Shown here in pieces: positions 1 through 47,260 of a DNA stretch of 64,000 bases. The DNA lies in NCBI GenBank assembly GCA_018222765.1, contig JAAEZT010000004.1, positions 62,001 through 126,000 on the forward strand, read 5' to 3'. This DNA is from a bacterium (GTDB lineage: Bacteria; Verrucomicrobiota; Verrucomicrobiia; Verrucomicrobiales; Akkermansiaceae). A model generated the notes under the pieces. The model did no database searches. It was not told the DNA's origin and saw nothing but the letters and a program-made list of their open reading frames with translations. The first letter of the stretch is position 1. Every line of letters starts with the position of its first letter. Both the position numbers and the translations under genes were made by a program.

Positions 1-1074
1 GGTGTCAGATTGGGCCTTTGCACCTGCGAGTTCACGGAAGGTCGGGGAGAGATCCCAGAAGGCGGACGGATGCGCGGAGGTCTGGGCAGCTTTGATTTTC
101 CCAGGCCACCAGGCGATGGTGGGCACGCGGATCCCACCTTCATAAAGGTCGCGCTTTCCACCGCGGAGTTTTCCACTTGAATTGAAGCTGTCGCGTCGAT
201 GTCCGCCTTCCTGCATCGCTCCGTTGTCGCTAGAAAATATGACGAGGGTGTTGTCGGCGATGCCGAGTTCGTCGAGTTTTTTGAGAAGGAGTCCGACGTT
301 GTGATCCATGTAGGAAATCATAGCGGCGAAGGTCGTCTTGGGTTCGCGCTCGTAGGAATAGTGGGGATGCTTGTCGCGGGCTGGGAGAAGTTCCTCTTTG
401 AGGATAGGGCGGTATTTTTCCTTCCACTCTTCCTTGGCGCGCAGACTGGCATGCGGGACTTGCAGGGCGAGGTGGAGGAAGAAGGGGCCGTCCTTTTGCT
501 TTTCGAGATACTGGAGGGCTTCGGCGGTGACGACGGTGGAAGAGTAGTTGTCGCCGTCGTGGAGAGTATTTTTGGGGTAGGGGACTTTGTCGTGATTCCG
601 CCAGAGGTAGTTAGGATAGTAAAAGTGGGCCGCAGTGTGGGAGGTGAAGCCGAAGAAGTAATCAAAGCCCTTTTTGCCGGGGAGCGTGGAGTCGTCGGTA
701 TTACAGCCGAGGCCGGACTTCCCAATCATCGCGGTGTGGTAGCCTGCTTCCTTCATCGCGCGGGGAAGAATTGGCTCATGCGGATCTTCACGCATCTGAA
801 GGCTGCCATTCCCACGGACGTAAATGTGTCCGGTGTGTTTGCCTTCGAGAAAGCAGCTCCGAGATGGTGCGCAAACGGTACTCCCGGCATAGTGACGGGT
901 GAATTTCATCCCCTCGGCCGCCATGCGATCGAGGTTGGGGGTTTTGATGACCTTCTGTCCGTAACACCCGAGATCACCGTAGCCGAGATCGTCAGCGAGG
1001 ATGTAAATGATATTGGGCTTCTTGGCTGGGGCCGGGAGGGCAAAAAGGAAGAAGATGGCGAAAAGGCGAGTCAT
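1..1074 (-). CDS. Secreted sulfatase, C-terminus beyond the left edge
   Basis: The reverse strand reads open from an ATG at 1074 to the window edge (358 codons), so the 3' end is missing. Residues 1-17 form a hydrophobic signal peptide ending at PAPA/K. The metal-binding ADDLGYGD motif follows near residue 27, then CAPSR with Cys68, which in type I sulfatases is converted to formylglycine. The motifs GKSGLG, PFFLHLALQVPH and FSSDNGA complete the arylsulfatase fold. The protein should hydrolyse sulfate esters, probably on polysaccharide, outside the cytoplasm after Cys maturation by a formylglycine-generating enzyme that is not in this window. The exact substrate cannot be read. A long open frame on the opposite strand here is a shadow. 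Confidence 0.93.
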   Translation of the reverse strand, partial: MTRLFAIFFLFALPAPAKKPNIIYILADDLGYGDLGCYGQKVIKTPNLDRMAAEGMKFTRHYAGSTVCAPSRSCFLEGKHTGHIYVRGNGSLQMREDPHEPILPRAMKEAGYHTAMIGKSGLGCNTDDSTLPGKKGFDYFFGFTSHTAAHFYYPNYLWRNHDKVPYPKNTLHDGDNYSSTVVTAEALQYLEKQKDGPFFLHLALQVPHASLRAKEEWKEKYRPILKEELLPARDKHPHYSYEREPKTTFAAMISYMDHNVGLLLKKLDELGIADNTLVIFSSDNGAMQEGGHRRDSFNSSGKLRGGKRDLYEGGIRVPTIAWWPGKIKAAQTSAHPSAFWDLSPTFRELAGAKAQSDT

Positions 1075-14960: not shown

Positions 14961-16505
14961 ATGATGAATCAAGGGGTTGTCAGGTTAATGGTCGTTTGGA
15001 TTTTTGTGGTGTTGGGGACCGCTCGGGCGGCGAAGCGGCCGAATATCTTGGTAATTCTCACCGATGACCATCGATACGATGCGATGGGCTTTCTAGGGCA
15101 TCCTTTTCTGAAGACTCCGAATTTTGACCGATTGGCGGCTGAGGGGGTTCATTTTAAAAATGCCTACGTCACGACCTCGCTGTGCTCGCCGAGCCGGGCC
15201 TCGATTCTGACCGGGCTCTACGCGCACAACCATCATGTTGTGGATAATTACAATCCGGTGAGCAAGTCGCTGACTTTTTTTCCCGAGCTTCTGCAGAAGG
15301 CCGGATACCAAACGGCCTTCATTGGTAAATGGCACATGGGCGACAGCGAGGAAAAGCAGCGGGGCTTTGATCACTGGATCAGCTTTAAGGGACAGGGAGT
15401 CTACGTGCCCGACCCCAAGATGCTCAAAGCGAAAGGACGGTTCGTGCCCCAAGCGATCAACTCCGGCTACAATATTAACGGAAAGAAAGTTCCGCAAAAG
15501 GGATATATCACTGACGAGCTGACCGACTTTGCCGAAGAGTGGTTGGAGGCGAAAGACGAGGAGAACCCCTTCCTGCTGTATGTCTCACACAAAGGCGTGC
15601 ATGCCGATTTTCTTCCGCCGGATCGTCATGCCTTTAAATACGACAAAGTGGATATTCCCACTCCTCCAACGCCCACCGCGAATCCGGATATGTTCCAAGA
15701 CCCGCCGATGTGGGTGCGCAACCAAAGCAACAGCCGCCACGGTGTGGAGTTTGCATATTACACCGGAGTGGACATGAAGAAATACTATCGTCGCTACTGC
15801 GAAGCGCTTCTCGCGGTTGACGATAGTGTGGGTCGTCTTTTGGATAATCTCGAGAAGAGCGGAGAATTGGAGAACACGGTGGTTTTGTATCTCGGCGATA
15901 ACGGATTTATTTTCGGAGAGCACGGGCTCATCGATAAACGATGTGCCTATGACGAGTCAGTGAAGGTTCCCATGCTGATGCGTTATCCCAAGGCAATCAA
16001 AGGCGGAACGACCGTGGAGAAAATTGTCGCCAACATTGATGTCGCTCCTACCTTGTTGGAGGTGGCTGGCTTGAAGGGCACGGGGGAAATGAATGGAGCA
16101 AGTTTCTGGCCTCTTGCCAAGGGAGAGAAGCTTGCTGATTGGCGGAAGTATTTGCTCTACGAATATTACTGGGAGCGCAACTACCCGCAGACCCCCACGA
16201 CCCATGCCGTGATTGGCGAGGACTATAAATACATCCGCTATCACGGGGTGTGGGATGTCGATGAGCTCTACGATCTCAAATCTGATCCCAAAGAGCGGAT
16301 CAATCTTTTCAATGATTCTACGCAGGCCGCCCGGGTCACCGAAATGAACAAGGCGCTTTTTTCCCTGCTCAAGGAATCAGGCGGCGAGGCAATGCCCTTG
16401 ATGCCCGATCGGGGGAACAAGTATTTTCACCGCAAGATCAAGGGGACCAAGGGGGCACCCTTCCCGGATAATTTCTACCGGAAGGCTGGCACAACCGGAA
16501 AATAA
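14961..16505 (+). CDS. Secreted type I sulfatase
   Basis: 514 residues from the ATG at 14961, which gives a clean signal peptide ending near ARAAKRP. Key residues are the metal-binding LTDDH, formylglycine site Cys75 in LCSPSRAS, IGKWHMG, SHKGVH, YLGDNGF and the C-terminal DELYDLKSDPKER. The length and these motifs resemble sulfatases acting on uronic or hexosamine sulfates. The substrate is not determinable. It ends 5 bp from the convergent ArsC-family selenoprotein gene. Confidence 0.95.
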   Translation: MMNQGVVRLMVVWIFVVLGTARAAKRPNILVILTDDHRYDAMGFLGHPFLKTPNFDRLAAEGVHFKNAYVTTSLCSPSRASILTGLYAHNHHVVDNYNPVSKSLTFFPELLQKAGYQTAFIGKWHMGDSEEKQRGFDHWISFKGQGVYVPDPKMLKAKGRFVPQAINSGYNINGKKVPQKGYITDELTDFAEEWLEAKDEENPFLLYVSHKGVHADFLPPDRHAFKYDKVDIPTPPTPTANPDMFQDPPMWVRNQSNSRHGVEFAYYTGVDMKKYYRRYCEALLAVDDSVGRLLDNLEKSGELENTVVLYLGDNGFIFGEHGLIDKRCAYDESVKVPMLMRYPKAIKGGTTVEKIVANIDVAPTLLEVAGLKGTGEMNGASFWPLAKGEKLADWRKYLLYEYYWERNYPQTPTTHAVIGEDYKYIRYHGVWDVDELYDLKSDPKERINLFNDSTQAARVTEMNKALFSLLKESGGEAMPLMPDRGNKYFHRKIKGTKGAPFPDNFYRKAGTTGK

Positions 16506-22680: not shown

Positions 22681-22852
22681 GGCTTGGGGATACCGTGTTG
22701 TTGAATAGGTTCTTGAGCAAAAAGGAATTATTGGGGACAGGGTTTGAATTGATGGAGCAGGGCTCTGGTCCAATAGTAAAACTTTCTGCTGCTATTTTAT
22801 TCGTTGAAACTGAAGCTTGCTTGCTTGGGGGGAGTTGGGAAACTTGGGGGTG

Positions 22853-23896
22853 ATGAATCGACGTCAGTTTATTGGGAGTTCGTTGGGGGCTTCGGCCGGG
22901 GTTGCCTTGGCGGATGAGGTCAAGAATCCTCTTCTTTTGGGGTATGATAATTTCGCGGTGCGTGCGATGGGATGGAAGGCCAAGGAGTTGATTGACTACG
23001 CGGTGAAGCTGAAGGTCGATACGGTGTTTATTACCGATCTCGACGCCTTTGAGACTCTGGACCTGAAGGCGCTGGGCGGTATTAAGAAGTATGCCGACGA
23101 CAAAGGGATGAAGATTTTTCTGGGAACATGGAGTATTTGTCCGTCCTCGGTTTCCTTCAAAGACAAGTGGGGGACGGCCGACGAGCATTTGCAGTTAGGT
23201 CTTCGTGCGGCCAAGGCCTTGGGCTCTTCGGTTTTGAGAGTGGTGCTCGGAAATAGCCGGGATCGCCAGACCGAAGGCGGGATTGAAGCGCGTATCGATG
23301 ACACGGTTAAAGTGCTGAAGAGAAACAAGAGTTTGTGCCAGGATCTGGGAGTGAAAGTGGCAATGGAGAATCATGCCGGCGACATGCATTCGCTGGAGGT
23401 GAAGAGCTTAGTCGAAAAGGCCGGGTCGGATTTTGTAGGTGTGAACTTGGATGCCGGGAATGCGGTGTGGACGTTCGAAACTCCGCTCGAGAATCTTGAG
23501 AATCTTGGAAAGTATACCCTGACGACGAGCCTTCGTGATTCCCGGATTTGGGAAAGCGAGAAAGGCGTGACCGTGCAGTGGACTGCGATGGGCGAAGGGA
23601 TGGTGGATTGGAAAACTTACTTCAAGCGATTCGCTGAGCTGTGTCCCAATGCGCCGGTGCAGATCGAAACAATTTCGGGATTCAATAAGGAGTTCGCGAT
23701 TGAGGACGAGGAGATGTGGAAGAAGTGGGGCAAGAAGCCTGCGAGTCTGGAGGCCTTCAAGAAGTGGGCCGTCGGCGGTAGGAAGAAGGCTCCCTTCAAA
23801 GGGAAGTCGAAGGAGGAAACCCAGAAGTATCAGTTGGGTGACATCGAGCGAAGTATCGCCTATTGCAAGAAGATCGGTCTGGGTAAGAAGAAATGA
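22853..23896 (+). CDS. Secreted TIM-barrel sugar phosphate isomerase/epimerase-like protein
   Basis: 347 residues from the ATG at 22853 (GGGGGTG upstream). The N-terminus MNRRQFIGSSLGASAG is a Tat-type signal. The body is an AP-endonuclease-2/xylose isomerase-like barrel with metal-site segments VAMENHAGD, VGVNLDAGNAV and VQIETISGF. In Verrucomicrobia and Planctomycetes such proteins usually lie by oxidoreductases or cytochromes. Here its stop overlaps the next gene's start by 4 bp (ATGA), indicating translational coupling with the di-heme protein. The substrate is unknown. Confidence 0.85.
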   Translation: MNRRQFIGSSLGASAGVALADEVKNPLLLGYDNFAVRAMGWKAKELIDYAVKLKVDTVFITDLDAFETLDLKALGGIKKYADDKGMKIFLGTWSICPSSVSFKDKWGTADEHLQLGLRAAKALGSSVLRVVLGNSRDRQTEGGIEARIDDTVKVLKRNKSLCQDLGVKVAMENHAGDMHSLEVKSLVEKAGSDFVGVNLDAGNAVWTFETPLENLENLGKYTLTTSLRDSRIWESEKGVTVQWTAMGEGMVDWKTYFKRFAELCPNAPVQIETISGFNKEFAIEDEEMWKKWGKKPASLEAFKKWAVGGRKKAPFKGKSKEETQKYQLGDIERSIAYCKKIGLGKKK

Positions 23897-25071
23897 AATG
23901 GTTCACGTTAATCATGATAACTCTGGGGTGTCTTGCCCGGGCGGAGGAGGTCTCTTCGGTGGTGATTGGGCGGAAGATTTTCATGGATACCAATCTGTCC
24001 CAGCCGGTCGGGCAGGGATGTGTGTCCTGTCATGATCCGAAGGCGGCCTTTGCGGATTCGCGTCGGGTGTCGCCGGGAGCGGTGAAAGGGCGGAAAGGCC
24101 GACGGAATGCGCCGACCTTAATGTATGCCGCGCTCATTCCGCCGATAGCGGCGGAGGATTTTTATGATGAGGAAGGGGAGTTGATTTATGTTCTGGAGGG
24201 AGGCTTGTTCCTTGATGGCCGGGCGCACAATCAGTTCGAGCAAGTGCAGATGCCTTTCTTTAATAAGAATGAAATGAACCTGTCCGGCCCGGCTGATTTG
24301 GCAGACCGGATTCGTAAATCGGAATATGCCTCGGATTTCAAGAAGTTGGTTGGCGGGAAGGTCTGGGGGGATGACGGAAAGTTGGTGGGTCAGGTGTATC
24401 ATTCACTGGTAGCCTTTTTGCGTGAGCCTATGTTTCGTCCTTTCAATGCGCGGATTGATGATTTCTGGAAAGGAGATGTGAAGGCGCTTAATGACTCCGA
24501 ATTGCGGGGTCTTGCGCTTTTTCAAAGCAAGGCGGGCTGCGCGCAGTGCCATCCCCTCGGGGTGGGAAGCTGGCCGGAACCGCTTTTGAGTGACTTTGGG
24601 TATGATAATCTCGGCGCGCCTTCGCTCGGAGAAAAGGATCCGGGCCTCGGAGGGGTTTCGGGCCGGAAAAACGAGATGGGCCAATTCCGCTCACCGACTT
24701 TGCGGAATATCGCCTTGACTGCGCCTTATCTGCACAATGGTTCGATCAAGACGCTGAAAGAGGTGATCGAGTTTTATAACAAACGCGATGTCGAGCCGGA
24801 GCGCTGGGGTAAGCCCGACTTTCCCGAGACAGTGAATCACGACGATATGGGGGATTTGAAGCTGACGGATCAGGAGGTTGATGACCTGGTGGCCCTGATG
24901 CACACCTTTACTGATAAGAATCTCTTGGAGATGAAAGAGGGCGATGAGCTTCCAAAGGCACCAGAGGGAGTGCCTTCGACGGAGTCGCGGAGGGCCTTTT
25001 TCCAGAATCGGCCACGGCTGGTCGATCCCAAGGCGAAACAGCGGGTGCCGGAGGAGAAGATACAGGAGTGA
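23893..25071 (+). CDS. Di-heme cytochrome c peroxidase/MauG-family protein
   Basis: 392 residues with a signal peptide (1-17). Two heme-binding motifs, CVSCH (43-47) and CAQCH (216-220), and the family signatures FLDGRA, FRSPTLRNIALTAPYLHNGS and LVALMHTFTD are present. Such periplasmic enzymes reduce hydrogen peroxide or oxidise organic substrates. It is coupled to the upstream isomerase-like gene. The roughly 50-residue C-terminal tail is Lys/Glu-rich and beyond the usual fold. Confidence 0.92.
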   Translation: MKWFTLIMITLGCLARAEEVSSVVIGRKIFMDTNLSQPVGQGCVSCHDPKAAFADSRRVSPGAVKGRKGRRNAPTLMYAALIPPIAAEDFYDEEGELIYVLEGGLFLDGRAHNQFEQVQMPFFNKNEMNLSGPADLADRIRKSEYASDFKKLVGGKVWGDDGKLVGQVYHSLVAFLREPMFRPFNARIDDFWKGDVKALNDSELRGLALFQSKAGCAQCHPLGVGSWPEPLLSDFGYDNLGAPSLGEKDPGLGGVSGRKNEMGQFRSPTLRNIALTAPYLHNGSIKTLKEVIEFYNKRDVEPERWGKPDFPETVNHDDMGDLKLTDQEVDDLVALMHTFTDKNLLEMKEGDELPKAPEGVPSTESRRAFFQNRPRLVDPKAKQRVPEEKIQE

Positions 25072-25271
25072 GGTCGAGGAGGGTCAAATCAAGGTGGTTA
25101 CAGGGCTGGAGGGAGAAATTCGGCTCAAAATGAATGGTTCTAAAAATTTGTAACTTTGCGGCTCTTTTCAGATTGACTCCGAGGGGGTCACGAGATGAAC
25201 ATAATGGGCAACTCCGGTATGGTTTAGTGCTCGTCCGGTTCAATCAGCTTTTCCAACCCCAAAAAATGCTA

Positions 25272-25913
25272 ATGAAAATAACAACAAAAGCCCTATCGTT
25301 TGTCGCGCTTGCAGCTTGCTCTGCATCGGCAGCGACGATCACTTGGGACACGGCGGTGATCAATACCACGGCTGCGGATATCATCACAGACGGTTCGCTA
25401 CATATCGCTGTTGACGCTGCAAGTAGCAACGACAATACAATCAACGGTGTCACTTTCGCTGGAGGAAATCCGCTGATTCAGAATGCCGAAGGCAGTTTCT
25501 GGACAGACGGGGGTGTCACAACAGGTGATGCTGGTTTGGACGATTTGCTGAACAGTCATTCCTATGCTGGAGGAACTCCATCGTTGGCATCCTTCGATAT
25601 TAATAGCTTAACCGTCGGCGACTCCTATGCGATTCAGATCATTGCGGTTGGGGATACCCGTGGTTGCTGTGCGGGCCGGACGCAGAACTATGACGGTGGT
25701 GGAGGGATCAGTGCTGATCTTACCCGTTCTGATCCAGCTTCGGTTGTCGGGTTTTTTGTGGCAGATGGCGTCACCCAAACGATCACTGTGAACGGATCAC
25801 AAGACGGTGGCCTTTCGGGCTACCAAGTGCGAAATGTGACGATTCCCGAGCCAAGCTCAGCCCTGCTTTCGCTGGTTGGACTTCTTGGATTGACGGCTCG
25901 CCGTCGCCGATAG
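25272..25913 (+). CDS. PEP-CTERM protein with the 'RGCC' domain
   Basis: 213 residues from an ATG at 25272 (an ATG 6 bp earlier is equally possible). A signal peptide (about 1-20) precedes one domain of about 165 residues containing SHSYAGG and GDTRGCCAGR. The C-terminus is a sorting tag: IPEPSSALLSLVGLLG then TARRRR, the PEP-CTERM pattern processed by exosortase. The domain also forms the N-terminus of the two large secreted proteins at 25976 and 31202. Its function is unknown. A strong terminator follows the stop. Confidence 0.85.
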   Translation: MKITTKALSFVALAACSASAATITWDTAVINTTAADIITDGSLHIAVDAASSNDNTINGVTFAGGNPLIQNAEGSFWTDGGVTTGDAGLDDLLNSHSYAGGTPSLASFDINSLTVGDSYAIQIIAVGDTRGCCAGRTQNYDGGGGISADLTRSDPASVVGFFVADGVTQTITVNGSQDGGLSGYQVRNVTIPEPSSALLSLVGLLGLTARRRR

Positions 25914-25930
25914 CCTTTCTGAAATTTGCA

Positions 25931-25964
25931 AACCGTGGTGCTTTGAATGGCACCGCGGTTTTTT
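25931..25964 (+). terminator. Rho-independent terminator after the PEP-CTERM gene
   Basis: An 11-bp stem with one G-T pair (AACCGTGGTGC / GCACCGCGGTT) and an 8-nt loop runs straight into six T on the plus strand, starting 17 nt after the stop codon. It ends just before the convergent 1715-residue gene. Confidence 0.88.
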
Positions 25965-25975
25965 GTGCCATCGTT

Positions 25976-28900
25976 CTACTGCTGGGTCGCCATGAGTCTG
26001 ACGAAGGCTTGGGTCTTGATGCTCATGGGCGAGGCGCTGCGGTAAGAGACGGTGGCGGTGCCATCGAGGTTGTCGCTTTCGGAGAGGAAGACCAACTCGG
26101 TTTCGGTATCCCAGGTGACCAGGTCGTATGAGAGTTGTGGAATCAGGGTCGCGGCATTTTGCGTGTAGAGGTTTCTCTCGAAGGTGATCACGTAATAGTC
26201 ATCGGTTTCTTCGCCTACGGTGAGTGAGGTGGGGGAGGCGTCGATTTTTGTCTGCGCATCTCCAAAGATGAGGTCGCTGGTTCCGAGGGCGTATTCGAAA
26301 AGGGCGGAATAGCGATCGCCGTCACTGTCTGCGGTGCTGTTACCGACAAAGCCGGCTTCGGTTTCTGATCCCGGAGCTCCATTGGGATTGTTGGAGCCGA
26401 TCCAACTGGCAGCGAGGCCGTGATCCGGGATGGGTAATGCCGGGGATTTCAGCACGAGGGTAAACGAACTGCCGTCGGCGAGAGGCCAGGGGAGATCGTC
26501 GTCGTAGCTGAAGTTGTGGATGGCGATATCATTTGCATCGAGGAGGAGGAGTTGTTCGCCCTCGTTGGCGAGGCGTCCGCTGTAGTCATTGCCGCCGAGA
26601 ACATCGTTGGCGATATTGATAGTGCCTGAGAGTCCGGGATAGCGGGCGTCGAAGGCGGCTTTATTTTTCACTAGAACCAGACGTGCTCCGGGAGCAATCA
26701 GGGTGTTGTCGGCGAAGGCGAAGGTGATCCCGAGGGTAAAGCGGACATTGGTTAGATCGATGGTCGACGTGCTGACGTTCATGAGTTCGATAAACTCGTA
26801 GTCATCGCGATCGGTCGAGATCGCCAGTTCTCCTGGAGTGGATGGCTCACCGGGGTGATAGTTTATTTCGGAGATGACCAGGTTGCTAGCGTCAGCTGGC
26901 ACGGTATCCGGAGTGAAGAATGCGGTATTGAGGGCACTCCATTCTCCGGTGGCGCTATTGTGAGAACGAGAGAAGAGCCAGCCGGGTTCGGTGAGAGAGA
27001 GAGGGTCTGATGAGTGGGTGTCACCACCGCCCACGCCGGGAGGGAAGCCGGTGAGGTCGAGATCGAAGCTGATGTCCGAACTGCTAGAAGAGGCTTGGTG
27101 AATTTCGACGGCAATAGTGTTGGTGCCGCTGACGAAGGTGTTCGGGGACAAGCTGATTGAATCTGTGTCGTTATCATCACTGGTAGTTCCAGCGTATTCA
27201 TCGAAGGAGGGATTGTTTCCCAGGTTCTGACCATCGACGCGGTTGCCGTTGACATAGACGACAATGCCATCGTCGTAGACATAATTTAGAGTGAAGGTTT
27301 CAAAGACGGAAGGGTCGGCGATATTGATGGTGGTGCGGAAATAGGTGGTGGCATTTTTTTGATCTCCATTTGTAGCGGGATCGACATCGATAAAATCGAC
27401 CTCGGTGGTTTCATCACCATCACCATATCCCAGGGGAGAAGCTCCGGAATCCCATGAGGCATCATTGAATCCTACTCCCCGCCAGGCGGTGCCTTGGTCG
27501 GAACCGTCGTCGAGGTAACTCCAAGTGTGGCCGCTTTCAATATAGCGGGTGGTGGTGGGGCCCCCGCCTCCACCGCCGTCACCCAAGGTGACCAAGGTGG
27601 CAGAGGGATTAATTCCTCCGCCGACAAGGCGTGGGTCGAGGGAGTGTGCGTAGTCGGTGAGGTCATTGTCACCATCTCCGAAGATGTAGTAGACTTTGTC
27701 TACGGTGGTCGGGGTGATGAAGGAAGGACCGGAGCCGGAAGGGATGGAGCCACCATGCTGACTGTAGGTCGGTGCGGCAAGATCAGGGTAGAGGTTGGCC
27801 GCGCGGAGGCTGCTTAAGAAGAGATCCGGCCGCTCGGGGAACCAGTCACTGACGATGCGATTGTATTCGCCCTCCCAGTCGCTGAGGGATCGGTTGCCGC
27901 CATGTTGATCTCCCCAGCGTGCCGCTTCGGGGTTAAGAATGCTCCGGTGATCGGCGGTGACTTCTTCGTAGCGGGCCAGGGCCGCGGCGGGAGTGAGGGG
28001 GCCGTTGTTGAAAAAGGCGCGGTGGACCCGGTCACCAAAGCGGAGACGAAATTCAGGGCTATCTTGTAGCCGGTCATTGGCGGCGGCGATGCCGCTGTAG
28101 TTGGTAATGCGGTTGTAGTTTGTGTTGGAACGAAGGAAGAGGGACCATTCGGAATCCCACATGAAGTACTTGTAGCCGTGACGGGGAGCCTGGGACTGAA
28201 TGCCGCCGTAGTAGTTTTTGTTGGGCCAGTCGCTGTTGCCGCCATACCAGTTGGTGATGAAGTAATCGGCATTGTTGGAAGGATCACACCAGACGGGGAA
28301 GCTGGCATTACGTGTGCCGTCGGGATTAAACCCGCAGGCTTTTAAGAAAGCGGCGTCGCGTTGAACGTTGGTGCCGGAAATCTCATTGACGGCAGAGCGG
28401 AGGCTATTCCAGTTATTGAGATTGGCAGAGCTGTTAATGGGAGTGCCTGAATTTTGACCTTCCCATTCTTCGCGAACGGCATCTTCGATATAGCTCTCGG
28501 CGAAGCCTGAATCGGGACGCTCAACAACGTTGTAGAGCCCCCAATACACGCCGTTGATATAGAGGTGAAGGTAGCGTCCGCGTGGGGCTGGCTGGCCAAG
28601 GGCGAGCTGGGTGCGGCGACCAAATTCATCGCGAGCGTATTGCGGTTGGCTTCCCGCGCCGGACCATTGCCAGCCGTCGTTTGATTCCATGCGGAAAACA
28701 AGAGTTTGGAATTCCCGGGCGACTCCTGGTTCGGTGCCGAAGAGAGGGAACTTGAGCGATCCAGGACCATCTGTGGGTTGGTTGCTGGTGCCGTATTCCG
28801 ATTTGAAGAGAACGCGGAAGGACTTCTTGCGAGTGAGGCCAAAGCTGCGGAAGGCGCCGCCTTGGATTCTGATGGCGCAGTTTTGTTGGAAGTTGCTTTC

Positions 28901-31123
28901 TCCGGTAGGGTCGTCGGGATCAACGAGTTCGAGAGATGTTTTGCGCTCCCATGAGGAGCCGGATGAACCAGGATTGGAGTAGATTCCGGAGGAGCCGAAC
29001 ATGTCGTCAACATCCATCGCGATCGAAAGGCTGGGGACAGTGGTGAGGTCATCCTCCATGGTGGGGTGTGTAGCGGGGTTGGCATTGGAATTGTTGTTCA
29101 TGCCGTAGTAGGAGCCTTGTCCGCCCCAGCTTGAGGGCAGACCGTAGAGGCTCTGCGTGTTGGCGTTCGTTTGATCGAGCACCGTGCTGGGGATGATGTA
29201 GGTGTGGGTGTCGGTGTTAGTCGAGACGTAGCCGGAGCGATAGCCGATGGCCTTGACGGCCATGGTGCGGTTGACCGTGATCGGGCCGGTGTAAATTGTG
29301 CCGCTGGTTTCGCTGGGCCAGCTTCCGTCGGTAGTGTAACGGATGGAGGCGCCGGGAGTGGCGGTTGAGATGGTGAGTGAGAAGGGGCTTCCGAAAATTC
29401 CGCGGGAGACGCTGAAGTTGGTGTCGGCGACAAATCCCGAGACGCCATTTCCGCTTGCGTTGGATCCATCAGGAGTGGGATTGAGAAGAAAGCCCACCTG
29501 AAGAGGATCGCCGAAGAAGCCATAAGAGATGTTTCCTTTTTGGTCGGGGTAGTCTGTGGTGTCGGTGCCAAATTCCGAAAGGACAGTGGTGCCATCCGGG
29601 CTGACGAGAGCAAGGTATTCCCCATTGGCGGAGAGTTTGAAGGTGGTGTGGAGTTCGTCGCCATTGGTGGGGCGGCGATCCTTACCGGAGGCGAAGATGA
29701 GAAGGTAGCCGTTCCCGGAAATCGAGATGTTTGGGAATTGCCACTTATTGAGCTGGTCCGGGTCATCGGTGAGGTAGTATCCACTGAGGCTGATCGATCC
29801 TCCGTCGGGATTGTGAAGTTCGACCCAGTCCGAGGTTTCGCCATCTTCGTCCTGAAGGCTGGAGGCGTTGGGGTTGGCGAGGAATTCGTTAATGCGAAGT
29901 GAGTTTCCCACGACGGTGAGCGAGAAGGTTTGCTCAATGGACAGCCCGGAGAGATCGGTACTGCGGACGCGGAAATTGAGAGTAGAACCGAGGCCGGGTA
30001 AGGCGGCGGCGGTTTGGAGGGTGTTACCGGAGATCGTGAAGGAGGCATTGTCGGTATCCCCTGCACCGGAGACAAGCTGATAGCTATGAGCGTCGGCGGT
30101 ATTGGGGTCCTCGGTGGCGAAATCGGCGACGGTTGATCCGGAAGGAGTGCCGAGGAGAACGGTATTTGAGGGGAAGGAGAGCGCGGTGGGCGCCATGGCC
30201 GCTTCGACACTGAGGGTGAACGTTTCTTCGTAAGTAAGAGTGTCGGTGTCGGTCGTGCGGAGACGGATCGAGTAGCTCGCACCGAAGCTACCGAGAGCGG
30301 AATCGGCACGGAGCTCATCACCGTTGGCGATGGTGAAGAGGTTGTTGTCGGGGAAGTTTCCGGTGTCGACGAAGCTATAGGTATGGTCGTTGTCACCGTT
30401 GGGGTCGGAAGTAGTTAGCGTTCCGACGAGGGTGCCTGCAGCAGAGTCTGGTGCGAGGTCGGTATTGCTCAGTGCGATATCGGTGGGCGGCTGGGGAGTG
30501 GGTGGTGCGGTGGCGCGGAGAATGTAGGCGCTGAGACCGGGATCCACTCCGTTGTTGACTCCGCCGAGGAGGTTGATCGTTTGGGTGGTGCCGCCGGCCG
30601 TGAAGGTCCCGATGACCGAGCCTACTCCGCTGCGGGAGAAATCGCTGCTAATATTCTCGGGTGATTCGTCGTCGCCGGCCCGTTGATTCCGGGAGGAACA
30701 ACAACCCCGGGTGTCGGCTGCCCCAATGAGTTGAATTTGATAGTCTGCACCTCCGGTGAGTCCGGTAAGTTGGAAAGTCCATCCACCTCCGGCATAGGAG
30801 TGGCTGTTGAGGACGGTGTTGAGTTGGGGATTGCCAGAGTCGCCTCCTCCTCCAGTGAAAAAAGTTCCCGTGCTGGTATTGTTGGGAGCGATTGCCTCGG
30901 CTGCAAAGACGATGTTTTCTCCACCGATGTTTACGGTTGTGCTGTCTCCGCCGCTTGTCGCGTTGACTGCTTTGACGAGAGTTCCGTTGGTATCCACCTG
31001 ATTGGCATTGGTAAGATTGAAGGTGGGTTGCCAGGCGATTTCAGCGGCAGATAGTAATAAGGCGCTGGAGATCAAAGAGGCGATGAGAACCAGTGAAAGG
31101 TGGCGCCGATAGAGTTTTTTCAT
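25976..31123 (-). CDS. Giant secreted CotH-kinase / lamin-tail multidomain protein
   Basis: 1715 residues with a signal peptide (about 1-27). In order: the shared 'RGCC' domain (about 28-205, ADTRGCCSSR); two cadherin-like repeats (about 210-405); a lamin-tail domain (about 408-530, RINEFLANPNAS...DWVELHN); a chitobiase-type segment (about 585-650, SIRYTTDGSWPSE); a CotH-like region (about 690-1100, IRIQGGAFR, YINGVYWGLYNVVERPD, KYFMWDSEWSLF); a jelly-roll module (about 1235-1390, VYDDGIVVYVNG); and a second lamin-tail domain (about 1440-1590, ISEINYHP). CotH proteins include spore-coat protein kinases; bacterial secreted forms are widespread and uncharacterised. It is likely surface-exposed. 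Confidence 0.88.
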   Translation of the reverse strand: MKKLYRRHLSLVLIASLISSALLLSAAEIAWQPTFNLTNANQVDTNGTLVKAVNATSGGDSTTVNIGGENIVFAAEAIAPNNTSTGTFFTGGGGDSGNPQLNTVLNSHSYAGGGWTFQLTGLTGGADYQIQLIGAADTRGCCSSRNQRAGDDESPENISSDFSRSGVGSVIGTFTAGGTTQTINLLGGVNNGVDPGLSAYILRATAPPTPQPPTDIALSNTDLAPDSAAGTLVGTLTTSDPNGDNDHTYSFVDTGNFPDNNLFTIANGDELRADSALGSFGASYSIRLRTTDTDTLTYEETFTLSVEAAMAPTALSFPSNTVLLGTPSGSTVADFATEDPNTADAHSYQLVSGAGDTDNASFTISGNTLQTAAALPGLGSTLNFRVRSTDLSGLSIEQTFSLTVVGNSLRINEFLANPNASSLQDEDGETSDWVELHNPDGGSISLSGYYLTDDPDQLNKWQFPNISISGNGYLLIFASGKDRRPTNGDELHTTFKLSANGEYLALVSPDGTTVLSEFGTDTTDYPDQKGNISYGFFGDPLQVGFLLNPTPDGSNASGNGVSGFVADTNFSVSRGIFGSPFSLTISTATPGASIRYTTDGSWPSETSGTIYTGPITVNRTMAVKAIGYRSGYVSTNTDTHTYIIPSTVLDQTNANTQSLYGLPSSWGGQGSYYGMNNNSNANPATHPTMEDDLTTVPSLSIAMDVDDMFGSSGIYSNPGSSGSSWERKTSLELVDPDDPTGESNFQQNCAIRIQGGAFRSFGLTRKKSFRVLFKSEYGTSNQPTDGPGSLKFPLFGTEPGVAREFQTLVFRMESNDGWQWSGAGSQPQYARDEFGRRTQLALGQPAPRGRYLHLYINGVYWGLYNVVERPDSGFAESYIEDAVREEWEGQNSGTPINSSANLNNWNSLRSAVNEISGTNVQRDAAFLKACGFNPDGTRNASFPVWCDPSNNADYFITNWYGGNSDWPNKNYYGGIQSQAPRHGYKYFMWDSEWSLFLRSNTNYNRITNYSGIAAANDRLQDSPEFRLRFGDRVHRAFFNNGPLTPAAALARYEEVTADHRSILNPEAARWGDQHGGNRSLSDWEGEYNRIVSDWFPERPDLFLSSLRAANLYPDLAAPTYSQHGGSIPSGSGPSFITPTTVDKVYYIFGDGDNDLTDYAHSLDPRLVGGGINPSATLVTLGDGGGGGGPTTTRYIESGHTWSYLDDGSDQGTAWRGVGFNDASWDSGASPLGYGDGDETTEVDFIDVDPATNGDQKNATTYFRTTINIADPSVFETFTLNYVYDDGIVVYVNGNRVDGQNLGNNPSFDEYAGTTSDDNDTDSISLSPNTFVSGTNTIAVEIHQASSSSSDISFDLDLTGFPPGVGGGDTHSSDPLSLTEPGWLFSRSHNSATGEWSALNTAFFTPDTVPADASNLVISEINYHPGEPSTPGELAISTDRDDYEFIELMNVSTSTIDLTNVRFTLGITFAFADNTLIAPGARLVLVKNKAAFDARYPGLSGTINIANDVLGGNDYSGRLANEGEQLLLLDANDIAIHNFSYDDDLPWPLADGSSFTLVLKSPALPIPDHGLAASWIGSNNPNGAPGSETEAGFVGNSTADSDGDRYSALFEYALGTSDLIFGDAQTKIDASPTSLTVGEETDDYYVITFERNLYTQNAATLIPQLSYDLVTWDTETELVFLSESDNLDGTATVSYRSASPMSIKTQAFVRLMATQQ

Positions 31124-31129
31124 GATGGC

Positions 31130-31167
31130 AAAAGAGAAAATCAGCCCTCTTCAGGAGAGGGCTGATT
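31130..31167 (-). terminator. Rho-independent terminator between the two large secreted-protein genes
   Basis: On the minus strand a perfect 12-bp stem (AATCAGCCCTCT / AGAGGGCTGATT) with a 5-nt loop is followed by TTTTCTCTTTTG. It lies 35 nt after the stop of the gene at 31202-33427 and just before the start of the next gene on that strand, so the two large genes are probably separate transcripts. Confidence 0.82.
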
Positions 31168-31201
31168 GGTTGATTTTGAAAAAAGGAGGTGAAAACCGTA
31201 A

Positions 31202-33427
31202 TTAGTTTTCGACGACCTTGAAGAATTGTTGGTCAGACCCGGGGTTGGGATTCGGGAATTCATAGGTGGTGAGATCTCCGCCGGAAGGAACGGAATCGTT
31301 TACATCAGCATCGAAGACACCTAGGTCGGTGTTCGTGAAGACAGTGTAGGTCCTCCCAGGCTTGGAGGTCCAAACGAGGGTCACTCGATTCGTGTCTGTA
31401 TTGTAACTGATGTCCGTGACTTTCAGCGGAGTGGTGCCGGCGTCGCCGAAGTACTCGATTTCACCCAGAGCGTGCTGCGTGCCATTGCCTGTGGTGTTGA
31501 CCTGATAACGGATAAACTTGTAGCTTACTGCTGGTGTTTCCAGGAGAAAGAGGGCGGTTTGATTACGGGCAGTCCAAATTGCCGGGTTCGTGCTGCGATA
31601 AATTGGGGTGAAATCTACACCGTCGTCAGATCCCTGAATTTCCCATTCGACTGGGTCACGAAGCGGAGAGTCGTTGCTGGAAGTCAGGGTAAAGTGAGTG
31701 ATGGAGATGGGATCTTCGAATTCTACCGTGAGGTCCTGAGGCGGAGCGTCGCAGCACCATTTGAAGTGGCCTCCTCCGACATTGTTGTCGAAGACATCGA
31801 AGGCTCCTTCGTTCAAGCCACCCGCAGTCGCATCGGTGAAGAAGGATTTCGAACTGGAAGTGATGCTGACCCAGTTGAAGTTGGTGCCGGCAGTGCCTTC
31901 GGTATCAATGCCGTCGTTTTCAGGGTCGGTCAAGTCGCCTCCAAGAAGTCCAGGGAGGAAAGAGACTTCGGGAAGAGCGGTGAAGCTACCTGGGTCGGTG
32001 GGGTCTGAGTTGTTGGTGATTTCAAATCCGTCGCTGCGGAGGTCTTCATCAGTATCTCGGAGATGTGGATTGGTGCCAGTTTGGGTGGCGTTTAGAAAGG
32101 GAAGGTCGGGATTTTCCGCACCGTCGAGAAGCCCGTCGTTATCGGTGTCATTGTCGAGAGGATTTGTTCCGGTATTGGTCGCACTCACCCAAGCTCCAGT
32201 GTTGGTTTCGACACCGTCGAGGTAGCCATCATCGTCGGAGTCGTCGTCGGCAATGTCGGTGCCATTGGCGAGTTCGCTGCCGTTGGTAGAACCATCAGAG
32301 TCGAAGTCCTCATCCCCGTCGAGGATCAGGTTGCCGTCTGTATCATCGTCGTTTGGATTGTAGCCAATACCAACTTCCACGTCGTCGGGAAGGTTATCGC
32401 TATCAGTATCGGTAACGTTGGGGTCGGAGCCCGTTTGGTTTTCATCGACGAAGGGAAGGTCGGGATTTTCGACGCCATCGGAGAGGCTGTCGCCATCGGA
32501 ATCTCCAATGAGAGGATGGGTGCCGGTGTCTGAGGTGCCATTCCAGATTCCGGTGTTTGTTTCGTCACCATCCAGAAGGGTGTCATCATCGGTGTCTTCG
32601 TCTGCAGGATCGGTCCCGGCAGTCTGTTCTCCAAGGTTGTCGAGGCCGTCATTGTCTTCGTCTTCGTCACCATCGAGGATCAGATCCCCGTCGGAGTCAT
32701 TGCTGTTGGGATTTAGGCCGTGAATATTTTCCCAGCTGTTGGTGAGTCCGTCCAAATCGTTGTCCTCGGAATCGGGAAGTTCGATCACTACGATCCCGGA
32801 AAACCCGGCGTCGCTGTTGCCCGTTAAGCCGCCAAGAGATCTCCAGAGGATGTTTTGGTCAACGGCGTCGGCAGTGAAGGTTCCTAAAACGCTGGCAAAG
32901 TCGCCTCGCGGCATTTCAATTCCAGTGTTGTAGTTTCCCAAGCCGTCATCGGGTTCGTAGGTACGGCCTGCGCAGCAGCCCCGCGCGTCGGCGACTCCGA
33001 TGAGCTGCACTTGGTAATTTGTTCCTGCTTGCAGACCATTGATGGTCAGGGTGATTTCAGTAGGGCTCCCTTGGTTATAGGCATGGCTGTCGAGAAGGGT
33101 GTCTAAATCGGCATCGCCCGTAGCTCCCGTGAAGAAATTGGTCCCGTGAGTCGGTCCAGTGGTCATGCTGGTGAGAATATTTCCGGTCCCTGCCGCTGCT
33201 GAGATTGTGAAGGTGATGCCGTTGATCGTGAGATCGTCTCCCGCACCTGCCCCCGTGGCACTGTTGAAGTCGAGTGCCTCGTGAATGATACTTCCCGGGG
33301 GATTCGAAATGTCTTCCGGAGCGGCGATTGAGAAGGCTGTGCCCCAAGTGATTTGGGAGCCCTGGGTTGTTGCAGGCAGTGCTGCCAAGAGCCCGAGTGA
33401 GAGGATTTTATGTCGAGTGTTTTTCAT
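31202..33427 (-). CDS. Secreted protein: RGCC domain, calcium-binding repeats, discoidin-like domain
   Basis: 741 residues from the ATG at 33427 (MKNTRHKILS gives a signal peptide; a longer frame upstream does not). The RGCC domain occupies about 25-225 (ADARGCCAGR). A region of about 230-470 consists of thrombospondin type 3-like Asp-rich repeats (DSDGD, DEDNDG, DTDNDGLLDGAEN), expected to bind calcium. Residues about 510-665 resemble an F5/8-type discoidin domain that binds carbohydrate (VEWEIQGSDDGVDF, YKFIRYQVN). The last 75 residues form a small C-terminal domain (TNRVTLVWTSKPGRTYTVF) common in verrucomicrobial secreted proteins. It is likely an extracellular glycan-binding or matrix protein. 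Confidence 0.85.
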   Translation of the reverse strand: MKNTRHKILSLGLLAALPATTQGSQITWGTAFSIAAPEDISNPPGSIIHEALDFNSATGAGAGDDLTINGITFTISAAAGTGNILTSMTTGPTHGTNFFTGATGDADLDTLLDSHAYNQGSPTEITLTINGLQAGTNYQVQLIGVADARGCCAGRTYEPDDGLGNYNTGIEMPRGDFASVLGTFTADAVDQNILWRSLGGLTGNSDAGFSGIVVIELPDSEDNDLDGLTNSWENIHGLNPNSNDSDGDLILDGDEDEDNDGLDNLGEQTAGTDPADEDTDDDTLLDGDETNTGIWNGTSDTGTHPLIGDSDGDSLSDGVENPDLPFVDENQTGSDPNVTDTDSDNLPDDVEVGIGYNPNDDDTDGNLILDGDEDFDSDGSTNGSELANGTDIADDDSDDDGYLDGVETNTGAWVSATNTGTNPLDNDTDNDGLLDGAENPDLPFLNATQTGTNPHLRDTDEDLRSDGFEITNNSDPTDPGSFTALPEVSFLPGLLGGDLTDPENDGIDTEGTAGTNFNWVSITSSSKSFFTDATAGGLNEGAFDVFDNNVGGGHFKWCCDAPPQDLTVEFEDPISITHFTLTSSNDSPLRDPVEWEIQGSDDGVDFTPIYRSTNPAIWTARNQTALFLLETPAVSYKFIRYQVNTTGNGTQHALGEIEYFGDAGTTPLKVTDISYNTDTNRVTLVWTSKPGRTYTVFTNTDLGVFDADVNDSVPSGGDLTTYEFPNPNPGSDQQFFKVVEN

Positions 33428-44202: not shown

Positions 44203-45717
44203 ATGAAAGTTTTCAGATGCTTGGCTGCTTCCCTGTTGTTCGTTCAGAGCGCCTTGGCGGACACCCCGCCGAATATCGTCTTCATCCTCGCCGATGATTT
44301 GGGCTACGGGGATGTCGGGTGTTATAACCCGACCTCTAAAGTCCCGACTCCGAATTTGGATCGGCTGGCGAAGGAAGGAATGCGCTTCACCGATGCGCAC
44401 AGTCCGGCGACGGTGTGCTCGCCGACTCGTTATAGCTTGCTGACCGGCAGAATGTGTTTTCGGACAGGTCGTTCGAGGGTTTTTTCGGGAGTGGGTGGCC
44501 CTTGTTTGATTGAAAATGGTCGTTTGACTCTGCCGCAAATGTTGAAGGACAAGGGCTACGCTACCGCGATGTTTGGAAAGTGGCATGTCGGGATGAGCTT
44601 CTTTGACAAGGATGGAAAGCGGATTGAGAAGCAGGGGTTGCAGGCGGTTAAGGAGATCGATTTTTCCCGCGAAGTTGGCGGCTCGCCGGTCGATTATGGC
44701 TTTGATCAGTTTTATGGCACCGCTTGTTGTCCAACGACGGATTGGCTCTATGCCTACATCGATGGGAAACGCATTCCGGTGCCGCCGGTGAAGCAGGTTG
44801 ATAAGAGTACATTGCCAAAGCATCCTTATGCCAATGATTGCCGGGGAGGAATGGTGGCGCCGAATTTTAATTTAGAGGAGGTTGATCTGGTGTTCTTGAA
44901 GAAGAGCCAGGAGTTCTTGAACAAGCGGGAAAAAGGAAAGCCCTTCTTCTTGTTTCATTCGATGCAGGCGGTTCACCTGCCGTCATTTCCGGCGAAACAA
45001 TTTCAAGGGAAGTCGGGTCAAGGCCCGCACGGAGATTTCATCTACCAGATGGATTGGACGGTGGGGGAATTGATGAAAACTCTCGAAGAACAGGGGCTTA
45101 CCGAAAATACCATCGTAATGTTTGGTTCAGACAACGGGCCGGAAGTTCCGACGATCATCGCGATGCGCCGGGACCATCAACACGATGGCGCGAGGCCTTG
45201 GCGGGGGGTGAAACGTGACCAGTGGGAAGGCGGGCATCGGACTCCGTTTATCGTGAAGTGGCCCGGAGTGGCCAAACCGGGTTCGGAGAGCGATGAGCTT
45301 GTTAGCCTGACTGATGTTTTTGCGACCTGTGCGGCAATCAATGGAGTTAAGTTCCCCAGAGATGCCGGTGAGGATAGTTTTGATCTCACGGGAACGTTGA
45401 GGGGGGATGTGCGGAATGCACCCGTGCGACCTTACCTTCTTCAGCAGACCTTCGCGATGAAGTTGTCGATTCGGAAAGGAAATTGGAAATATATCGATCA
45501 TAAAGGGTCGGGCGGAAATAATTACGAAAAGCCCGGTGAATGGGGGATGAGGCAATATGCCCTTCCTGATACTGATCCCGATGCGCCAGGGCAGTTGTAC
45601 AATCTCGCCAGGGATCCCGGTGAGACGACGAATCTCTACTCCAAGAATCCCGAAAAAGTCGCGGAACTGAAGGGCTTGTTAGAAAAGTCGAAGGCCTCGG
45701 GAAGAACGGCGAATTGA
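44203..45717 (+). CDS. Secreted type I sulfatase (arylsulfatase A-like)
   Basis: 504 residues with a signal peptide (1-19). ILADDLGYGDVGCYNP, formylglycine site Cys72 in VCSPTRYSLLTGR, FGKWHVG, FHSMQAVHLP and MFGSDNGPE are all present, with the C-terminal QLYNLARDPGETTNLY. These fit arylsulfatase A-type enzymes on sulfated glycans; the substrate is unknown. It starts directly beside the remnant of another sulfatase on the opposite strand. Confidence 0.95.
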   Translation: MKVFRCLAASLLFVQSALADTPPNIVFILADDLGYGDVGCYNPTSKVPTPNLDRLAKEGMRFTDAHSPATVCSPTRYSLLTGRMCFRTGRSRVFSGVGGPCLIENGRLTLPQMLKDKGYATAMFGKWHVGMSFFDKDGKRIEKQGLQAVKEIDFSREVGGSPVDYGFDQFYGTACCPTTDWLYAYIDGKRIPVPPVKQVDKSTLPKHPYANDCRGGMVAPNFNLEEVDLVFLKKSQEFLNKREKGKPFFLFHSMQAVHLPSFPAKQFQGKSGQGPHGDFIYQMDWTVGELMKTLEEQGLTENTIVMFGSDNGPEVPTIIAMRRDHQHDGARPWRGVKRDQWEGGHRTPFIVKWPGVAKPGSESDELVSLTDVFATCAAINGVKFPRDAGEDSFDLTGTLRGDVRNAPVRPYLLQQTFAMKLSIRKGNWKYIDHKGSGGNNYEKPGEWGMRQYALPDTDPDAPGQLYNLARDPGETTNLYSKNPEKVAELKGLLEKSKASGRTAN

Positions 45718-45802: not shown

Positions 45803-47260
45803 TCAGGGCTTGATGCCGGAACCCGAGGCTTTGGTGAGTTTGGAGAGCTTTTTAATGAGCCCGGCATGAGCGGGGTCGGCCGCAACGTTTTTGTGGGGAT
45901 TGCCCTGGAAGTCGATGAGGGTGATGTCTTCGAGTGAGCCCGTGTGATCGTTTTTGCGCCATTCGGTGTAGCGGTAGCGGTCGGTGCGGATGCTGGTGCC
46001 AAGGACTTTTCCAACGCCGGGTTTACTTTTGAAGTATTGGCTGAAGGCACCTTTTTTCCATGGTGTCTTTGGTTTGGAGAGGAGGGGTTTTAGGGAAACA
46101 CCGTGGAGGTTTTTGGGAGTTGGGATTTCCGTGAGATCGCAGAGAGTGGGGAAGAGATCGACGAGTTCGGCGAGGGCCTTGGTGCGTTGTCCTTTCTTTT
46201 GGCCGGGAGCAACAATGACGAGAGGGACTTTCGCGGCCACTTCGTAGGTGGTATGCTTGCACCATTCGCCGTAGTCGCCGAGGTAGTATCCGTGATCCCC
46301 CCATAGGACGATGATGGTGTTCTTGGCGAGACCGTTTTCCTCGAGGCCTTTTATCAGTCGTCCGATTTGTGCGTCCACGTAGCTGACGCTGGCGCGGTAG
46401 CCATGAATGAGTTCGCGCGTTTTTGCATCGTCGAGTCTCTTGGCCTTTTTGGGAATGTCGGAATAGTTTTTCAATTCACCCCAACTGGAACCATCATAGG
46501 GAAGTCCGTTGATAGCCTTGCTGCGTGAGGGGACTTTGATCTTCGGGCGATCGTAGAGGTCCCAGTATTTTTTCGGGGCGTTGAAAGGGAGGTGGGGCTT
46601 GTTGAATCCGACGGCGAGGAAGAAGGGCGCATTTGAGCTCGCGAGTTTCTTCATGCGTTCAACGGCGGTTTTGGCAACCATGCCGTCGTTGTAGGCGTCG
46701 TCGCTGACCTCTCCGCCATTCTCACTTGCTGGGCCATTGGTGCGAACTCCGGTTTCCCGTTGAATGCGGCGGGCTTTGGTCGAGGCGGCCATCCCTGCGG
46801 GAGAAGCGTATGCCGGACCGAGTCCGCGGAGGGGCTTTTCGGACCAGCCCTGGGGGAAGTCGTCGTTCGAGGCGTGATAGATTTTCCCGATGGAGAGGGT
46901 GGTGTAGCCTTGGGCTTTGAAATGTTGGGGCATGGAAAGTGCGTCGGGGTTTTTCTCACGCATGGGCGTTTTGTAATTCCAGCACCGTGTGGTCTGGGGG
47001 CGGAGCCCGGTCATGAGGCTGGCGCGGGAGGCTCCGCAGACTGCGACCTGGCAATAGGTTCGCTCGAAGAGAGTTCCCTTTGCGGCGAGCGCGTCGATGT
47101 TGGGTGATTTGATTTCCGTGCGGCCGTAACAGTTGAGCTCCGGACGGAGATCGTCGACAGCGATGAAGAGGACGTTTGACCGCTCTGCGGTGAATCCTGA
47201 ATTCGAAAAGAGGAGAAGTCCGGTGCCGGAGAGGAGGAGTTTTTTCAGGGAAAGAGTCAT
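45803..47260 (-). CDS. Secreted sulfatase, iduronate-2-sulfatase type
   Basis: 485 residues from the ATG at 47260; the upstream in-frame extension overlaps the neighbouring CBS gene and lacks similarity. Signal peptide (about 1-25). FIAVDDLRPELNCYG and Cys75 in AVCGASRASLMTGLRP (C-x-A-x-R, the iduronate-sulfatase variant of the formylglycine motif) are diagnostic, with SIGKIYH, LWGDHGYYLGDYGEWCKHTTYE and the late RTDRYRYTEWR. It likely removes 2-sulfates from uronic acids or related sugars. It is convergent with the sulfatase at 44203, with 85 bp between stops. Confidence 0.95.
   Translation of the reverse strand: MTLSLKKLLLSGTGLLLFSNSGFTAERSNVLFIAVDDLRPELNCYGRTEIKSPNIDALAAKGTLFERTYCQVAVCGASRASLMTGLRPQTTRCWNYKTPMREKNPDALSMPQHFKAQGYTTLSIGKIYHASNDDFPQGWSEKPLRGLGPAYASPAGMAASTKARRIQRETGVRTNGPASENGGEVSDDAYNDGMVAKTAVERMKKLASSNAPFFLAVGFNKPHLPFNAPKKYWDLYDRPKIKVPSRSKAINGLPYDGSSWGELKNYSDIPKKAKRLDDAKTRELIHGYRASVSYVDAQIGRLIKGLEENGLAKNTIIVLWGDHGYYLGDYGEWCKHTTYEVAAKVPLVIVAPGQKKGQRTKALAELVDLFPTLCDLTEIPTPKNLHGVSLKPLLSKPKTPWKKGAFSQYFKSKPGVGKVLGTSIRTDRYRYTEWRKNDHTGSLEDITLIDFQGNPHKNVAADPAHAGLIKKLSKLTKASGSGIKP

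Follow-up and report, generated by a model that had tools for sequence, protein, structure and literature searches.

The window analysed here is a stretch of 64,000 nucleotides from a bacterium of the family Akkermansiaceae (assembly GCA_018222765.1, contig JAAEZT010000004.1, positions 62,001 to 126,000 of the forward strand). It contains three neighbouring genes for secreted proteins, designated A, B and C, which share a domain of approximately 165–190 residues that starts after the signal peptide and is referred to below as the RGCC domain. A first-pass annotation had described this domain in three different contexts, all of which were found as stated: A ends in a PEP-CTERM tail, B continues into CotH and lamin-tail domains, and C combines calcium-type repeats with a discoidin domain. 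The PEP-CTERM family PF07589 scored 21.3 bits on protein A, against a cut-off of 20.7. The repeats of C are of the Asp-rich Ca/TSP3 type and lie N-terminal to the discoidin domain; TSP3_bac scored in one ortholog. The open reading frame (ORF) of A is open from position 25134, with 25266 or 25272 as the likely start, and that of C is open from 33505. The coordinates of all features are compiled in Table 1.

The N-terminal domains of the three proteins are homologous. BLASTP comparisons of the RGCC domains gave E-values of 1.8e-24 (A/B), 9.7e-30 (A/C) and 4.2e-24 (B/C), and the bit scores of the pairs (89–109) are about threefold higher than the maxima from 200 shuffles each (33–37). The full-length alignment of the three copies (alignment A1) contains all residues named in the first-pass annotation. 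It has 39 invariant columns, including I3, W5, H76, D108, R110-G-C-C113 and R116 (numbering of A), and the proposed invariance of the Cys-Cys pair and the nearby Arg is borne out by the motif DxRGCC..R, which is identical in A, B and C. The domain had also been called unrecognised, and rightly so: in neither the window proteins nor the members of a 49-sequence alignment (A2) is the region covered by a family of Pfam-A or NCBIfam, and the best match of any of the 49 members is at about E 0.006.

Table 1. Positions in the window of proteins A, B and C, their parts and neighbouring genes.
Feature	Position	Strand	Remarks
Protein A	25266..25913	+	signal peptide, RGCC domain, PEP-CTERM tail
RGCC domain of protein A	25332..25841	+	copy used for the structure model
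His76 of A (model numbering)	25557..25559	+	invariant in the RGCC clade; aligned with malectin Glu87
D-T-R-G-C-C-A-G-R loop of A	25653..25679	+	Cys codons 25665-25670
PEP-CTERM sorting tail of A	25839..25910	+	PF07589; kept in orthologs
Protein B, 1715 residues	25976..31123	-	RGCC domain, CHB_HEX_C_1/Fn3-associated, CotH kinase and lamin-tail domains
RGCC domain of protein B	30515..31042	-	
D-T-R-G-C-C-S-S-R loop of B (Cys141-Cys142)	30689..30715	-	His108 of B at 30800-30802
CotH kinase domain of B	27851..28873	-	PF08757, residues 751-1091
Protein C, 741 residues from likely start	31202..33427	-	RGCC domain, Asp-rich repeats, discoidin domain
RGCC domain of protein C	32783..33355	-	
D-A-R-G-C-C-A-G-R loop of C	32963..32989	-	His of C at 33083-33085
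F5/8-type C (discoidin) domain of C	31475..31864	-	PF00754, residues 548-677
K-W-C-C-D, second adjacent-Cys pair of C	31748..31762	-	inside the discoidin domain
Xylose-isomerase-like TIM barrel and di-haem cytochrome c peroxidase (MauG-like) genes	22817..25071	+	upstream of A
Sulfatase	19-1017	-	
Sulfatase	15039-16070	+	
Sulfatase	44269-45336	+	
Sulfatase	46127-47179	-	

Searching genomes with a profile built from the three copies, as had been recommended, recovered relatives in 22 of the 288 Verrucomicrobiota genomes searched; in the window's own genome this profile found copies A, B and C only. The 49-member profile detected relatives in 80 of the 384 genomes searched from the class, mostly near the N-terminus of secreted proteins, and 34 of the 44 short family proteins end in a PEP-CTERM-like tail. 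Hence, the domain is not private to the three proteins but represents one clade of a large Verrucomicrobiota family with the consensus I-T-W ... G ... A-x-N-x-G ... V-N-G-V-x-F ... L-x-x-G-x-x-Y-x-I-Q-x-W-x-x-D-x-R ... R ... V-I-G-T-F-x-A-x-x-x-x-Q. The wider profile also detected a 765-residue ORF on another contig of the window's genome (C21, L116:1495-3789), in which two distant malectin-like relatives lacking the Cys pair (CC) flank Asp-rich repeats. The phylogenetic tree groups the domains of A, B and C with those of their orthologs in a single 27-row clade with a Shimodaira–Hasegawa-like approximate likelihood ratio test (SH-aLRT) value of 84 (not starred), and the ortholog groups inside it reach values of 97–100. 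In one relative (genome G506, loci L045 and L078) the RGCC domains of A and C are mutual nearest relatives, and the same holds at locus L039 for those of the short PEP-CTERM protein (A) and the neighbouring C-like gene. These pairs suggest lineage-specific gene conversion or exchange of N-terminal domains between neighbours.

Most members of the wider family lack the cysteines, and CC is a derived feature of some branches within it. Among 124 non-identical domains, 32 carry Cys at both positions, 92 at neither and none at a single one. The loop motif D-x-R-x-C-C-x-x-R is complete in all 32 CC domains. When the loop columns were left out of the tree, a minimum of four changes in the CC state was obtained, three of them being forced by starred branches. 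A replacement of the family's conserved Trp/Phe (position 105) by CC was considered and dropped, since five CC domains retain that aromatic residue. The RGCC domain contains no Cys besides the pair. The first-pass annotation had suggested looking for a disulfide between the pair and for a partner Cys elsewhere; the latter is unlikely and was rejected, since neither the RGCC domain nor mature A offers one. Because the pair is the only Cys content of the domain, the two residues are likely bonded to each other as a vicinal disulfide, and the both-or-none pattern is what would be expected from such a bond. Mature C contains, besides its RGCC pair, the adjacent pair of its discoidin domain. Close relatives of this discoidin domain have CC or L-Y, Y-Y or Y-N at that place, and among about 30 distinct matches the pair is nearly both-or-none, with one distant match (29% identity) showing a single Cys.

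The lack of other cysteines in mature A, and the presence of nothing but two adjacent pairs in C, would also fit a surface layer in which disulfides between molecules cross-link A with B and C, or several molecules of A with each other. We regard this as very improbable, because a single Cys would suffice for cross-linking, yet not one of the 124 domains has just one. The discoidin domains, with their one exception, argue in the same direction.

The fold prediction, which had likewise been recommended, resulted in a confident model of malectin type. For the RGCC domain of A, AlphaFold2 with alignment A2 reached a predicted local distance difference test score (pLDDT) of 96.6 and a predicted template modelling score (pTM) of 0.92. 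Prediction from three sequences alone gave a pLDDT of 58, and the 49-sequence model was used. Its top fold match (VIA) is the C-terminal domain of Bacteroides uniformis beta-glucuronidase (Z 13.4), followed by human malectin (9ikp; Z 13.3, 143 residues aligned, root-mean-square deviation 2.8) and plant malectin-like ectodomains (ANXUR/FERONIA; Z 12.1–13.0). Unrelated folds of the general jelly-roll background score about Z 8; bacterial binary-toxin and Cry domains, which matched with Z about 8, were assigned to this background. Eel lectin is not among the 50 fold matches listed, which is uninformative either way. According to the model, the RGCC domain has the malectin beta-sandwich fold. The likeness to malectin/CBM57 (PF11721) consists in fold and strand order, with Z 12–13 across most of the domain; in contrast to malectin, however, it has neither a Pfam match nor a significant profile-profile match. 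PF11721 gave no match above the Pfam gathering cut-off in the window proteins or the 49 members. Sequence searches of the PDB returned only short fibronectin-like matches to the strand motif, and a marginal match to DUF4465 (E 0.1) was set aside, the fold search having pointed to malectin.

In Xenopus malectin, nigerose is contacted by Tyr67, Glu87, Tyr89, Tyr116, Phe117 and Asp186 (PMC13335976). These positions were mapped by means of a weak profile alignment and secondary structure. The only stretch covered by that alignment places L-L-N-S-H-S-Y on L-Y-x-x-E-R-Y and the Y-x-I-Q strand on the malectin Y-x-V-x-L strand, so that His76 and Tyr78 fall on Glu87 and Tyr89. The RGCC loop comes after the same strand as Tyr116-Phe117, and Asp158 plausibly corresponds to Asp186, as judged by inspection. 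In this proposed alignment Tyr89 is kept as Tyr78 and Asp186 as Asp158, whereas Glu87 is exchanged for His and Tyr116-Phe117 for the R-G-C-C loop. His76 is present in 27 of 27 members of the RGCC clade, in none of 92 CC-free domains and in none of the five CC domains outside the clade. The loop Asp and both Arg residues occur in 32 of 32 CC members, and Asp158 in 25 of 25 where the position is present. Thus, clade-specific residues appear to fall on the sugar-contact positions of malectin, and His76, Arg110, the Cys pair and Arg116 may form one putative site.

A similar arrangement is known from F-type lectins, in which His52, Arg79 and Arg86 bind fucose and the Cys82-Cys83 disulfide touches the C1-C2 bond; viral F-type lectins have Phe instead of CC (PMC5712786). 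The eel lectin segment Y-T-I-T-S-V-T-I-T-N-R-G-D-C-C-G-E-R aligns without gaps with Y-A-I-Q-I-I-A-V-G-D-T-R-G-C-C-A-G-R of A. Counted from the strand Tyr, Cys-Cys stands at +13/+14 and Arg at +17 in A, B, C and eel lectin alike (Y-x12-CC-xx-R), although adjacent Cys followed by xxR after this strand is a feature not of all F-type lectins. With respect to eel agglutinin AAA, FBP32 and the pneumococcal fucolectin-related proteins, the likeness comprises a jelly-roll strand followed by the CC and Arg loop in the same register, an upstream His, and the co-occurrence of His/Arg/Arg with CC. A profile comparison of the RGCC clade with F-type lectins by hhalign gave a score of 39.5 (P 1.2e-5) over 50 columns including the His region, in contrast to maxima of 25.7 in 150 shuffles of all columns and 32.0 in 150 shuffles with the CC block kept. 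In global mode P was 0.0016, at low probability, and CC-free domains compared with F-type lectins gave P 0.07. The similarity is restricted to about these 50 columns. Fold-clamping disulfides are another feature of F-type lectins, and the RGCC domain has no Cys outside the pair. Moreover, the F-type motif HX24RXDX4(R/K) is absent: RGCC domains have H-x33-R-G-C-C-x-x-R with the Asp before the Arg, and for this reason the domain was not filed as an F-type lectin. We regard the resemblance as one of site design. As the motif is missing from most of the family, convergent evolution in an equivalent loop seems likelier than membership among the F-type lectins. A search of the phylum with a single F-type lectin query found almost nothing.

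Two loci outside the window bring both kinds of domain together. An ortholog of C (L042:518-2341, Akkermansiaceae WKH.23) carries a true F-type lectin domain (FNRVNCCGSRL) where the discoidin domain stood, i.e. a swap of lectin domains; its RGCC domain, repeats and C-terminal tail are retained. The locus L104:1-7060 encodes two large neighbouring proteins in which tandem F-type lectin domains (NR.DCC..RL) occur together with KWCC discoidin domains, TSP3 repeats and a malectin-like domain; a number of their cysteines stand in adjacent pairs. The co-occurrence of these domains at L042 and L104 supports an F-type-like site design.

We consider it fairly probable that the RGCC domain is a malectin-fold lectin module with a vicinal-disulfide site like that of F-type lectins, which targets the three secreted proteins to one glycan. 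The RGCC clade would carry D-x-R-x-C-C-x-x-R on the sugar-contact loop of malectin, where the adjacent Cys residues would form a strained vicinal disulfide and present a flat, non-polar face to the sugar ring. Hydroxyl or sulfate groups of the sugar may then be bonded by His76, which is specific to the clade, and by Arg110, Arg116 and Asp158, in analogy to the His/Arg/Arg triad and the Cys82-Cys83 pair that hold fucose in F-type lectins. Packing of vicinal disulfides against the undecorated side of a sugar ring has precedents, as in arabinofuranosidase (1wd4; PMC12102755). Adjacent Cys on a sugar ring is thus an established mode, in another domain; for the RGCC domain both the disulfide and the ligand are presumed. 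The N-terminal module would direct the PEP-CTERM surface protein A, the Ca-repeat/discoidin protein C and the CotH/lamin-tail giant B to the same glycan, possibly a sulfated polysaccharide from algae, fucose- or galactose-like, or the coat of the cell itself. Of the common extracellular function suggested by the first-pass annotation, binding is supported by the predicted malectin fold and the conserved putative site. Anchoring is indicated for A alone, which may be attached via its PEP-CTERM tail, as an exosortase (139 bits) is encoded in the genome.

Several results weigh against this interpretation. A comparison with bacterial malectins by hhalign gave P 0.099 and a probability of 0.6%, i.e. 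no detectable sequence homology, and the putative site was placed by the weak alignment and secondary structure described above. With CC masked, the comparison with F-type lectins drops to P 0.009 over the same stretch, and with the whole block masked to P 0.006, which is suggestive at most; the F-type signal is therefore mostly the motif itself. Disulfide formation may not be easy, since no DsbA family member was found in the 97.8%-complete genome, in which other oxidases were not searched, and fucose as the ligand is disfavoured by the lack of any GH29 or GH95 fucosidase in it. Finally, plant malectin-like ectodomains bound no tested sugar (PMC6038381). As their fold scores equal those of malectin, the fold is not proof of sugar binding. 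The RGCC domain could accordingly be a protein-protein module, as in the plant CrRLK1L receptors with their tandem ectodomains, its CC loop docking on a surface partner or joining the three proteins, whose genes stay together in relatives. We consider this unlikely in view of the clade-invariant polar residues at the sugar-contact positions of malectin. In addition, the companion domains belong to sugar-binding types (discoidin, true F-type lectin, CHB_HEX_C) and have similar Cys pairs.

The whole gene cluster is kept in two relatives of the same genus (G447 and G506) and in several metagenome-assembled genomes of Akkermansiaceae. In the kept layout A is convergent with B, C lies upstream of B, and the TIM-barrel and MauG-like genes often precede A. 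The latter two overlap by four bases in the window and are linked to A across several genera. This linkage of a di-haem peroxidase gene to A, together with cysteines that are either paired or absent, would be compatible with CC as a structural staple or a redox or metal site, e.g. oxidized by the peroxidase or binding copper or zinc, with the ligand bound elsewhere. Such a role is quite improbable, because the pair lies on the predicted ligand loop within an invariant D-x-R-x-CC-x-x-R. A metal site is disfavoured further, since no further Cys or His ligands are present in all CC branches and the five CC rows outside the clade do not have the His. MauG-like peroxidases are, moreover, common in Verrucomicrobiota.

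With regard to the glycan proposed for the lectin module, the host is a marine-type member of Akkermansiaceae, judged by its closest relatives. In its 4.3-Mb genome 137 matches to sulfatases were counted, of which four lie in the window. Sulfated polysaccharides that contain fucose are degraded by marine Akkermansiaceae (PMC8857213, PMC13174399). The idea of a polysaccharide utilization locus for fucoidan is weakened by the missing GH29 and GH95 families. Our guess is a sugar with an axial hydroxyl or a sulfate group; a ligand of the fucose or galactose type is possible but doubtful.

What is new is the probable presence of a vicinal-disulfide site designed like that of F-type lectins in the corresponding loop of the malectin fold, in a family previously unlisted. 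A more tentative reading, less probable than not, is that a malectin-fold domain independently evolved the F-type-like site (His, Arg, vicinal disulfide, Arg) in a topologically equivalent loop. Aquatic Verrucomicrobiota might then use sugar-stacking vicinal disulfides in three or more beta-sandwich families at once (malectin-like D.R.CC..R, discoidin KWCC and F-type NR.DCC..R), often within one protein and as replacements for aromatic residues. The analysis gives a widespread family of secreted proteins a named fold and a testable site, in a phylum of specialists on marine polysaccharides that are sulfated and rich in fucose (PMC8857213, PMC13174399). Should the vicinal-disulfide site prove real, it would clearly exemplify how an unusual means of binding sugars evolved in parallel in different lectin folds, and D.R.CC..R, KWCC and NR.DCC..R would provide a simple signature for glycan-binding proteins in these genomes.

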